A stretch of DNA of 64,000 bases from Mesobacillus subterraneus. Lineage in GTDB: Bacteria; Bacillota; Bacilli; Bacillales; Cytobacillaceae. The notes beneath the pieces were generated by a model, which worked only from the letters and a program-made list of their open reading frames with translations, searched no databases and was not told where the DNA came from. A program made the position numbers and the translations under genes. This document shows positions 25,928-60,798 of the stretch, in pieces; the stretch's first letter is position 1, and the number at the start of each line of letters is the position of its first letter. The stretch covers positions 620,001-684,000 of the forward strand of contig NZ_CP129019.1 of the NCBI RefSeq assembly GCF_020524355.2. Reading direction: 5' to 3'.

Positions 25928-26452
25928 ATGCTGAAAAAGCTACTGGGAATAGACAAAAAGATGCTGTTATTCATTGGCCTATTTGCTGGAATCATTGTTT
26001 CTGTCGTCACTGTCAAAACGCTTGCTTATACCGATTCACCGGAATTTTGCTCGAGCTGCCATATCATGACAGAGGTCCATGATTCATTCTCTGATTCCAA
26101 TCACGCCGGTCTGTCCTGCGGAGACTGCCATTTACCGCATGATAGCATGGTGAATAAATACACCTATAAGGCAAAGGCCGGAATGACGCATGTGTATTTC
26201 AACACGCTTGGTGAAGCAAAGATCCCGAAGGTGCTTCACGCAACGGAAGGTTCTGAGGAAGTCATCAATGAGAACTGCATCAGCTGCCATGAGAATACGC
26301 TGGACAACATCTCACATGATGCGAAAGACAGCTGTTCAAGCTGCCACCAGGCAATACCGCACGGCAAAGGCTTTAAAACAGAAGACTATTTTAAACCGCC
26401 GAAACCAGGCGAGCTTTTAGAAAATAAAGGAGGTACGATGAACAATGGCTAG
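25928..26452 (+). CDS. nrfH: Nitrite reductase tetrahaem quinol dehydrogenase NrfH
   Basis: Membrane-anchored NapC/NirT-type cytochrome of 174 aa that takes electrons from menaquinol and passes them to NrfA. It has one N-terminal membrane segment (residues 13-32) and four c-haem motifs: CSSCH, CGDCH, CISCH, CSSCH. ATG 25928 follows AAGGGAGGTG. Its stop overlaps the nrfA start, as is usual for nrfHA. The upstream Ccm system supplies the haem attachment. Confidence 0.95.
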   Translation: MLKKLLGIDKKMLLFIGLFAGIIVSVVTVKTLAYTDSPEFCSSCHIMTEVHDSFSDSNHAGLSCGDCHLPHDSMVNKYTYKAKAGMTHVYFNTLGEAKIPKVLHATEGSEEVINENCISCHENTLDNISHDAKDSCSSCHQAIPHGKGFKTEDYFKPPKPGELLENKGGTMNNG

Positions 26453-27879
26453 AAATTTCCGCTGGGCATTCTTGCTCCTTGCGGCTGTCATGCTCATCAT
26501 AACAGGCTGCTCGAGCTCGGAAGATGAAGCAACTTCCGCAAGCGAGCTGAAAACTGGGCTGAGCAAAGATGAAATCAGCAACGAGGCCTTCAAGGACCTT
26601 TTCCCGCTGCAATATGACAGCTACAAGCAAAATGAAAAAATGGAGGATACGAAGTACAGCGGTTCCGTCAAACGAAGCAAGTTCGATCATGACAAGGAAC
26701 CGTATCTGCCAGTCCTTTTTAACGGCTATGGCTTTGCGACTGAGTACAATGAGGATCGCGGCCATATCTATGCCAATGAGGATGTCCGGGCAATCGCTCG
26801 TATCACTGACAAATCAATCGGATCATGCTTAACCTGTAAGTCGACTGCTGTTCCTCACATGATTGAGGAAATGGGAGACGATTACTGGGGGGGCAATTTT
26901 AACAAAGATATCTGGCTAAAAGCAGAAGCGATGGGCCATTCACCAATCGGCTGCTCAGACTGCCATGATCCACAGACAATGGATTTGCGAGTTACCCGTC
27001 CAAGCTTTATCAAGGGAATGGAATCTCAGGGTATCGACATGTCCAATCCGACGAAGAATGATATGAGAAACTATGTTTGCGGCCAGTGTCACGTAGAGTA
27101 CTACTTCGCAGCAGATAACGGAGAAGTAACGTATCCTTGGGCAAATGGCTTCGAGTCTGAAGATATGTACGAATACTATGAAACGACTGCTAAAGAGCAA
27201 GGTTTCGAGAAGGACTGGGTCCACAACGTTTCAGGAACGCCAATGCTAAAAGCGCAGCATCCTGACTTTGAGACTCATATAGAAGGACCGCATGGTGAAG
27301 CAGGAGTCACATGTTCAGACTGTCACATGCCATATGACAGGGTGGATGGAAAAAAAGAAAATCAGCTCACACTGGTGGACATCTCCACTGAAGACGATGG
27401 ATCGGTCATGTGCAACCTGCCATACGAACAGAGATATGGATGAACTGAAAGAGCGTGTAATCGGTATCCAGGATAAACATATGGAAGCACTTCATAAGGC
27501 CGAGGATATATCGATCACCTCGCATTATTACGTAAATAAGATGATTACTTCTGGCGTAACCGAAGAGAAAATCAAGCAAGCTCAGGAGCATATCAGAAAA
27601 GGACAATGGTTCTGGGATATGGTTGCAGCTGAAAGTGCGGCAGGATTCCATAACCCGCAGGGAGCAATGGATTCATTGAGAGTATCGATTGAAGAGTCGA
27701 ATGAGGCCATCAATCTTGCTATCGAGGAATTGACCAAGAAAGGTGTAAATCTTGAAGAGGTCAAAGAAGAGATTGAAAAGGTGAAGAAGGCTGTTTACGA
27801 CGAAAAAGATAACTTCAAGAAGAAAGAAAAAGCAGTGAACAGTTACTTCCCAGCACAACAGCCAGCTCCGAAAAAATAG
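26445..27879 (+). pseudogene. nrfA: Ammonia-forming cytochrome c nitrite reductase NrfA, frameshifted as read
   Basis: Pentahaem enzyme reducing nitrite to ammonium with six electrons. The N-terminus is a lipoprotein signal (lipobox ITGC), so it is tethered outside. Haem motifs: CLTCK (the catalytic haem with Lys ligand typical of NrfA), CSDCH, CGQCH, CSDCH, CATCH. The first frame stops at 27443 after losing register at VDGKKENQ. The correct continuation KKKISSHWWTSPL lies in the next frame. Removing one A from seven at 27350-27356 restores 477 aa, the normal length. Either a sequencing error or a slippery site. Confidence 0.9.
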
Positions 27880-30129: not shown

Positions 30130-30355
30130 AGATAGAATGGAGCTGGGGTTAGTTGCCTGGCTTCTATTTTTTTTAGATAAGTAGGTTGTGAATTATTCAG
30201 CTCCAGTTGACTTATCAGGGCGGATCGAGAGGCTTCCGTTCTTATCGGTCACAATTTATGCAATTTTTCTCGATAAAAAATGCATATTTTTCATCTAATA
30301 TAGAAAAGTGAGATTATGATATAATCATACTTTGAAAGACAAGGGGGTGATTGGG

Positions 30356-30883
30356 TTGAAATTTAAAATCCTCGGAATGGCGTTTTTGGCTGCCGGTTTA
30401 TTAACTGCCTGTAATGGCGGGGAGGAATCTGCGGAACCTGAAAAACAACAACAAGACATCAAGAAATTGGTGAGTGATTACAGCACAGATAAAATTGAGG
30501 GCCACAAAGCTTCCATCACCTCAAATGAGCTGACGATTGCCGACAGTGAAGGGGACAAGCAAGTCTATGACATTTCGGACGAAGACTTCTTTGTCTCAAT
30601 CGCACCTTATGAAAATCAAACCCATCCTTGAACGAATCATAGCTTGACAGGTTGTCAAGGTGAACTGGTTGAAAAAGAGTTTGATGTATATATTGAGGAT
30701 GAGGATGGAAACGTGGTCGTTGATGAGAAAATGACATCCCACCAGAATGGTTTCATCGATTTGTGGCTTCCTCGTGATAAAAAGTTCAAAACAACGATTG
30801 GATATAACGGGAAAACTGTAGAATCAGAAATTTCCACTTTTGAGAATGACGCCACTTGTATTACAACAATGCAGCTAATGTAG
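30356..30883 (+). CDS. cueP: CueP-family copper-binding lipoprotein with in-frame UGA (candidate selenoprotein)
   Basis: TTG 30356 with AAGGGGGTGA upstream starts a signal peptide with lipobox LTAC (lipid Cys 19). The frame runs 175 codons to TAG 30881, broken only by TGA at 30629-30631 (codon 92). Around it the protein reads YENQTHP-UGA-TNHSLTGCQGE. CueP proteins carry copper outside the cytoplasm and have three conserved Cys. Here UGA, C100 and C168 are spaced 8 and 68, the spacing of Cys96, Cys104 and Cys172 in Salmonella CueP as I remember it. A perfect hairpin follows the UGA. Sec insertion is therefore plausible; a C-to-A mutation or sequencing error is the alternative. If not read through, the product would be a 91-aa fragment. 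Confidence 0.75.
30643..30659 (+). promoter_or_regulatory. Candidate bacterial SECIS hairpin in cueP
   Basis: CTTGACA, loop GGT, TGTCAAG: 7 perfect pairs, starting 11 nt after the UGA codon, with the GG of the apical loop 18 nt after it. E. coli fdhF SECIS, as I recall it, has the same 11-nt gap and a GGU-containing loop at the same distance. The hairpin lies in coding sequence (SLTGCQG). Confidence 0.6.
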
Positions 30884-30886
30884 ACT

Positions 30887-30915
30887 AAAGCACCTATTTT
30901 CAGGTGCTTTTTTTT
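30887..30915 (+). terminator. Terminator after cueP
   Basis: AAAGCACCT, short loop, AGGTGCTTT followed by TTTTT. Confidence 0.88.
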
Positions 30916-30967: not shown

Positions 30968-31458
30968 TAAATTCAGCTCCAGCGCCTAGCCCCTCGAGTC
31001 GCTTGTCCTGCTGCGGCTCCTAACTCCTCGAGACGTTTCGGTCCTGCCAATGAAGTCAAAGAGCGACTTCACTGTCAGGCCCTCCAACGCTTGTCGGAGT
31101 TGAGCAGTCGCCTCCGCTTTTCGAATTGTCTAGCTTTGGCTCCTAACTCCTCGAGACGTTTCGGTCCTGCCAATGAGGTCAAAGATCGACTTCACTGTCA
31201 GGCCCTCCAACGCTTGTCGGAGTTGGGCAGTCGCCTCCGCATTTCGAATTGTCTAGTGTCGCCTCCTAGAAACTCCGAAACTTCAACTCCGCCGGCAGAA
31301 GCAAAAAGCGCTTCTTTGTCGGAGTCTCCAGTTTCTCCGTTTCTGGACAGTCGGCTATACAATTCGATTTCGGTCCGCTCAGGTGAAGTCAAAGAACGAC
31401 TTCACCGGTCGGCCCTCCAGCGCTTGTCGGGGCTGAACGAGGCGTTTGCGCTTTTTGT
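30968..31458 (+). repeat. Modular hairpin repeat element, copy 5
   Basis: The longest copy, about 490 bp. It has two tandem left modules with GAAGTCAAAGAGCGACTTC and GAGGTCAAAGATCGACTTC hairpins, then the CTCCGAAACTTC module, then the common right end. Differences between copies fall mainly in the number of inner modules. The gap from cueP to the activator gene (30884-31521) holds only this element and the terminator. Confidence 0.85.
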
Positions 31459-60006: not shown

Positions 60007-60153
60007 AATGATCACCCTTTCGTTTTAAAGGAATTCACATATAGATTGTGGATTCCTTTTTGTGTTTATGCAGCCAGGATAAATTTCATCTTGAAAACAT
60101 ATGGGTTGCATGATATTGTTTGAAACGAATGAAAATAGTACAGAGGTGTCAAT

Positions 60154-60798
60154 ATGAGACTAAGAAACAAGCCTTGGGCTAAAGATAAATTACTTCAGTA
60201 TTCAAATTTTGTAATTCATGGACCGGAACAGCACCGTGGAAAATGGGGTCAAGTTTTTGAAAAGGATCAGCCCCTCCACATTGAGATTGGAACAGGAAAA
60301 GGCCAGTTCATCACTGGAATGGCTAAAGCGAATCCGGACATTAACTATATCGGCATTGAATTGCAGGAAAGCGTCATCGTCAGCGCGCTGGACAAGCTGA
60401 TTGAAGAAGATTTGCCAAACTGCAAACTGATGAATGTTAATGGTGCTGAGCTTGCCAAGTACTTTGAGAGCGGAGATGTCAGCCGAGTTTACTTAAACTT
60501 CTCTGATCCTTGACCAAAAACTCGCCATGAAAAGAGAAGGTTGACTTACAAAACATTCCTTGACGTATATGAATCCATTCTTGTGAAAAATGGAGAAATC
60601 CACTTCAAGACAGACAACCAGGGATTATTCGAGTACTCCCTAGTCAGCTTCTCGCACTATGGCATGAAGCTTAACTATGTCAGCCTCGACCTTCACAACA
60701 GTGATTACGAAGGCAATGTCATGACCGAATACGAAGAGAAATTCTCCTCACGCGGCAGCAGGATTTACCGCTGTGAAGTTCAATTTATCTCTGAATAA
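60154..60798 (+). pseudogene. trmB: tRNA (guanine-N7)-methyltransferase TrmB, in-frame UGA as read
   Basis: Methylates G46 of tRNAs. 214 codons, all in one frame except TGA at 60511-60513 (codon 120). The family motif here is NFSDPWPKxRHxKRRL; the sequence reads [21 protein letters not shown] Trp codon TGG became TGA, removing a TGGCCA site. SAM site IEIGTGKGQF near residue 45 and C-terminal [14 protein letters not shown] are intact. No hairpin in the SECIS window follows, so a sequencing error or nonsense mutation is likely. AGAGGTG precedes the ATG. Confidence 0.88.

Follow-up and report, generated by a model that had tools for sequence, protein, structure and literature searches.

The DNA analysed here, referred to as the window, is a 64,000-nt stretch of the Mesobacillus subterraneus genome (G000, a 4.79-Mb single contig; NZ_CP129019.1, positions 620,001–684,000). 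It carries a cueP gene whose frame, running from TTG at 30356 to TAG at 30881–30883, contains one internal stop, a TGA at codon 92 (Table 1), and in all likelihood this gene encodes a selenocysteine (Sec)-containing CueP. The translated product matched the CueP profiles PF21172 (153.6 bits, cut-off 27) and NF038094 CueP_fam (187.1, cut-off 60), placing it in the family; with the stricter NF038095 metallochaperone model it scored 152.7, under the cut-off of 195, so we do not file it as a CueP metallochaperone in the strict sense. It shares the fold of Salmonella CueP (PDB 4gqz) and aligns with it residue for residue, residues 92, 100 and 168 being spaced by 8 and 68: the three CueP cysteines are present as two cysteines plus a UGA at the first place. 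The two proteins differ in that first residue and in location, since Salmonella CueP is free in the periplasm whereas the window CueP is a predicted lipoprotein of a Gram-positive bacterium. The lipobox cysteine, Cys19, is kept in 44 of 48 aligned CueP proteins, and letters identical to the ribosome-binding-site-like AAGGGGGTG precede the cueP start in Mesobacillus selenatarsenatis (locus L050). A preliminary description of this stretch had already pointed out the otherwise perfect frame, the cysteine spacing and a hairpin shortly after the UGA; all three observations held up, the frame in the sequence and in both profile matches, the spacing in the alignment with 4gqz, and the hairpin in the sequence.

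Table 1. Coordinates of cueP, its elements and other features in the window.
Feature	Position	Strand	Basis
Ribosome-binding-site-like AAGGGGGTG, ending 6 nt upstream of the TTG start	30341..30349	+	sequence reading
cueP frame containing the UGA; 175 residues before the TAG stop	30356..30883	+	sequence, translation, profile matches
Lipobox-like Leu-Thr-Ala-Cys, residues 16–19, predicted lipoprotein anchor	30401..30412	+	sequence; signal type inferred
TGA, predicted Sec codon 92	30629..30631	+	TGA or TGT/TGC in all copies with a readable codon
Spacer from UGA to hairpin, 11 nt	30632..30642	+	sequence
Hairpin 5' arm, CTTGACA	30643..30649	+	sequence, comparison of TGA and Cys genes
Apical loop, GGT, 18 nt past the UGA	30650..30652	+	sequence, comparison of TGA genes
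Hairpin 3' arm, TGTCAAG, including the codon of conserved Cys100 (30653–30655)	30653..30659	+	sequence, comparison
Conserved Cys168 codon	30857..30859	+	translation; comparison among copies
Terminator-like stem then T run, directly 3' of cueP	30887..30910	+	sequence
Intergenic repeat 3' of cueP, two tandem copies of 123 bp each, 96% matching	31015..31256		
NrfA-like cytochrome c552, two overlapping frames	26445..27443 and 27292..27879	+	
trmB frame, broken by TGA at 60511	60139..60795	+	

To see how codon 92 varies, a search covered 201 genomes (the window genome and 200 relatives); cueP was present in 93, and the codon was read in 100 copies from these genomes, excluding two weaker rows, one a further fragment of the G004 gene and the other a match of 22 bits in G196. 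It was TGA in 75 copies, TGT in 19 and TGC in 6, and never any other codon. The preliminary description had named TGC in close relatives as grounds for rejecting Sec; every one of the 20 congeners searched has TGA, with an additional frameshift in the G004 gene. A further 41 named cueP loci (24 TGA, 17 Cys) come partly from the same genomes and were therefore kept out of this count, and samples at class and at phylum level, each of 398 genomes (56 and 9 with matches), added 30 readable copies, 3 with TGA and 27 with Cys (31 and 28 in the raw tally, since L163 repeats L139). When these overlapping sets were pooled, a cysteine stood at +8 from codon 92 in 172/172 copies, and among the TGA copies 100 of 102 had one at +76. 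The gene thus shows what is expected of a selenoprotein: an in-frame UGA aligned with a conserved cysteine, with both flanks conserved. Among 17 equal-length genus sequences (from 21 genus genomes) the median ratio of nonsynonymous to synonymous substitution rates (dN/dS) was 0.067 past the TGA and 0.145 before it, and the aligned part of those 17 held no additional stops; as judged from these sequences, the region past the TGA is under purifying selection. On the best cueP tree (131 rows: 78 TGA and 53 Cys, L163 repeated) at least 13 Sec/Cys switches were counted, at least 4 of them forced by well-supported (starred) branches. The comparison shows a UGA that behaves as a selectively kept sense codon, exchanged only with Cys codons. 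Several genomes carry more than one copy: G046 has three, all TGA, and G067 and G152 each have one TGA copy and one Cys copy, natural Sec/Cys pairs in one cell.

The hairpin after the UGA resembles a bacterial Sec insertion sequence (bSECIS). In the bSECIS model given in PMC13188914 the loop has 3–9 nt with G in its first two places and lies 16–37 nt after the UGA, the stem has 4–16 bp, and the minimum free energy (MFE) is -7.5 or lower; the cueP hairpin has a loop of 3 nt with G first, at 18 nt, a stem of 7 bp and an MFE of -10.7 kcal/mol (40 nt). A perfect stem of at least 7 bp in the same geometry was also reached by 526 of 20000 synonymous recodings of the gene and at 39 of 4990 codons of nine long open reading frames in the window, so that in one sequence alone the hairpin is modest evidence. 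Across sequences, drawn from the genus-to-phylum searches and the named loci, the evidence is decisive: of 70 distinct TGA genes 69 had all seven pairs intact, as against 3 of 62 among the distinct Cys genes. The former count lies far beyond chance: when same-amino-acid codons were permuted among all genes (2000 trials), a full stem stood on average in 26.7 and at most in 38 of the 70. Synonymous entropy at codons 4–9 past the TGA was 0.00–0.32 bits in TGA genes versus 0.91–1.83 in Cys genes, and at codon 10 it was high in both (1.56 and 1.79). The GGT loop was invariant in 64/64 distinct TGA 48-mers from the 201 genomes and the named loci, and compensatory changes were seen at pair 2 (T-A to C-G by two synonymous changes in L152, L158 and L159) and at pair 5 (A-T to G-C in L042 and L148). 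On the cueP tree, the hairpin test had 4 pairs, on average 2.9 in the same direction and never one in the opposite, too few for significance. The comparison across sequences shows an RNA hairpin that is preserved almost exclusively in genes with UGA at this codon, a result at odds with the equal presence in Cys relatives that the preliminary description had named as telling against Sec.

The window genome also holds most of the machinery for Sec. A tRNA-Sec gene (56.3 bits, cut-off 47; anticodon TCA) was called as such by both Rfam and ARAGORN, selB is open along its full length, and selD, adjoining selA, has an in-frame TGA; two matches to the formate dehydrogenase (FDH) alpha subunit, one above and one below the cut-off, have one TGA each. 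The SelD and FDH sites are built like that of cueP, with a downstream hairpin, G in the first two loop places and an apical loop 17–18 nt past the TGA, although they belong to unrelated protein families and CueP is an extracytoplasmic copper protein. More widely, selB and/or tRNA-Sec occurred in 69 of 70 genomes with a TGA-type cueP versus 10 of 23 Cys-only genomes (Fisher p 5e-9, not corrected for relatedness). The Cys-type cueP L122 (G064:C10:83936-84451) and the tRNA-Sec gene of its genome (85243–85335) are separated by about 0.8 kb.

Several observations weigh against a Sec-containing CueP. One TGA gene, L160, has a stem mismatch, and three Cys genes (L039, L096 and L127) have the full stem. 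An MFE of -7.5 or lower was found in 59 of 64 TGA sequences but also in 11 of 35 Cys sequences, the MFE of the window gene is by itself unexceptional (804 of 4000 recodings were equally low), and there was no relevant Rfam match. Ten Cys-only genomes carry sel genes, while G010, a TGA-cueP genome that is 66% complete, has a selA match and none to selB or tRNA-Sec. On the cueP tree, the link to sel genes had 4 well-supported pairs, most of them without a difference in the sel trait, which put significance out of reach. Finally, a frameshift within a G run breaks selA of the window genome in two, so the strain as assembled might not make Sec. The gene set that the preliminary description had asked for is thus present as to selB, tRNA-Sec and selD and broken as to selA, which in 18 of 20 congeners runs without an internal stop; the exceptions, G004 (87% complete) and G010, are the least complete genomes. 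As for the Cys genes with an intact SECIS-like hairpin, L039 (in G073) and a TGA copy are sisters on a starred branch, and L039 and L096 (in G074) are apparently cases of recent Sec-to-Cys exchange.

Other breaks in this assembly bear on the split selA. The NrfA-like cytochrome c552 and another FDH match elsewhere in the contig are split in a similar way, and we therefore suspect assembly indels in all three. The trmB frame is broken by a TGA at a position that we take to be the Trp of the DPWPK motif; this TGA is missing from 20/20 congeners and is therefore private to this assembly, through private mutation or sequencing error. In these comparisons trmB shows the pattern of an error or private mutation and the cueP TGA shows the opposite: that cueP is a pseudogene or its TGA a sequencing error, as such breaks might suggest, is hardly conceivable given the identical TGA in three quarters of the copies read, mostly in the assemblies of other genomes, and the low dN/dS past it, and is refuted by the conservation of the TGA across genera.

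Could the functional product be a 91-residue truncated lipoprotein, with the downstream part rarely translated or made from an internal start? Some termination at a Sec UGA is to be expected, and 28 of 31 database records matching the first 91 CueP residues end directly before the UGA, the short forms having mostly 91–99 residues. Against this, the region past the UGA is more constrained than the region before it, and a protein ending at the UGA would lack two of the three conserved cysteines as well as five of the nine predicted strands, making a truncated functional product very improbable. None of the 120 best database matches was both full-length and close to the Mesobacillus or Cytobacillus cueP; the Sec form was met in our database searches only as cut-off fragments, because its codon resembles a stop signal. 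None of 152 protein records contains a U residue, but U may be written as C, so this absence says little alone; the truncated records and the lack of a close full-length one are the stronger sign that the form is new.

Marginally less remote, yet still most unlikely, is decoding of the UGA by a near-cognate Trp-tRNA or a Cys-tRNA with a UCA anticodon, giving Trp or Cys and no Sec. One database CueP, P0039, does have Trp at this position, possibly through the gene caller's choice of code, in which case the caller may simply have read TGA as Trp; another, P0119, has Ser. In the genomes read, however, the codon swaps with Cys codons only and the stem accompanies the UGA; SelB, SelD and a TGA-bearing FDH are present, and the TCA-anticodon tRNA that was found is called as tRNA-Sec, in a genome that was not scanned for other UCA-anticodon tRNAs.

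Insertion of Sec at the UGA is thus almost certain in our view. We propose that SelB with Sec-tRNA would bind the GGU-loop hairpin and place Sec at residue 92, and that CueP would be exported and anchored as a lipoprotein on the outer face of the membrane, where Sec92, Cys100, Cys168 and the conserved His90 and His95 may form a metal and redox site. Compared with a thiolate, a selenolate has the higher acidity and is more readily regenerated; at residue 92 it could serve to bind copper at the cell surface and reduce it there, and in the oxidising surroundings beyond the membrane it would lend itself both to Cu(I) binding and to rapid redox cycling. We lean towards Sec taking part in binding or reducing copper in this way, with far less assurance than we attach to its insertion. 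In Salmonella CueP, Cys104 (Cys100 here) is needed for copper resistance, which the C104S variant loses (PMC13201067), and this ties the equivalent site to copper; PMC13201067 and PMC8966772 also refer, by citation, to copper binding, copper supply to SodC and a Cu(II) reductase activity that has been proposed. Alternatively, Sec92 may serve thiol-selenol redox, reducing oxidants or disulfides at the cell surface by way of a selenylsulfide with Cys100, with no copper binding. Mention of a proposed Cu2+ reductase activity in PMC8966772 and a paper on scavenging of reactive oxygen species by Salmonella CueP, cited there and in PMC13201067, are in keeping with this idea, but the C104S result speaks against it and we consider it rather unlikely. 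Returning to copper, we put forward tentatively, as a possibility just short of even, that Sec92 is a direct copper ligand and the protein a selenolate-based copper chaperone or Cu(II) reductase outside Bacillaceae cells, common enough that extracellular copper handling, besides formate metabolism, helps keep the Sec code there.

The preliminary proposal that Sec replaces Cys in CueP was supported by comparison, and what had been a candidate from one genome widened into a conserved family. It also knew of no such copper function among described selenoproteins, and on this point one correction is needed. Table 1 of PMC13188914 (2026), with 119 prokaryotic selenoprotein families and subfamilies, already includes two CopZ-family 2Fe-2S forms and the SO_0444 Cu/Zn efflux transporter; these too have Sec in a copper-linked protein, so the copper link of Sec-CueP is not unique. 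They belong to other families, with Sec motifs GxUC, CU and UxC, and their names point to a chaperone-type protein and a transporter. CueP, PF21172 and NF038094 are all missing from that table, the word CueP appears nowhere in the main text of the paper, and we found no description of Sec-CueP in the open-licence literature. On the best reading of these sequence comparisons, Sec-CueP is a widespread and so far undescribed selenoprotein family; the gene very probably encodes Sec, which makes this a new family in the field's sense of the term and at the same time a Sec variant of a known protein. It would add to the PMC13188914 catalogue a family common among the relatives searched and would place Sec at an extracytoplasmic copper site. 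Close relatives offer natural Sec/Cys pairs for gauging what selenium contributes to copper chemistry, and the family suggests a reason why Bacillaceae may keep their Sec machinery.
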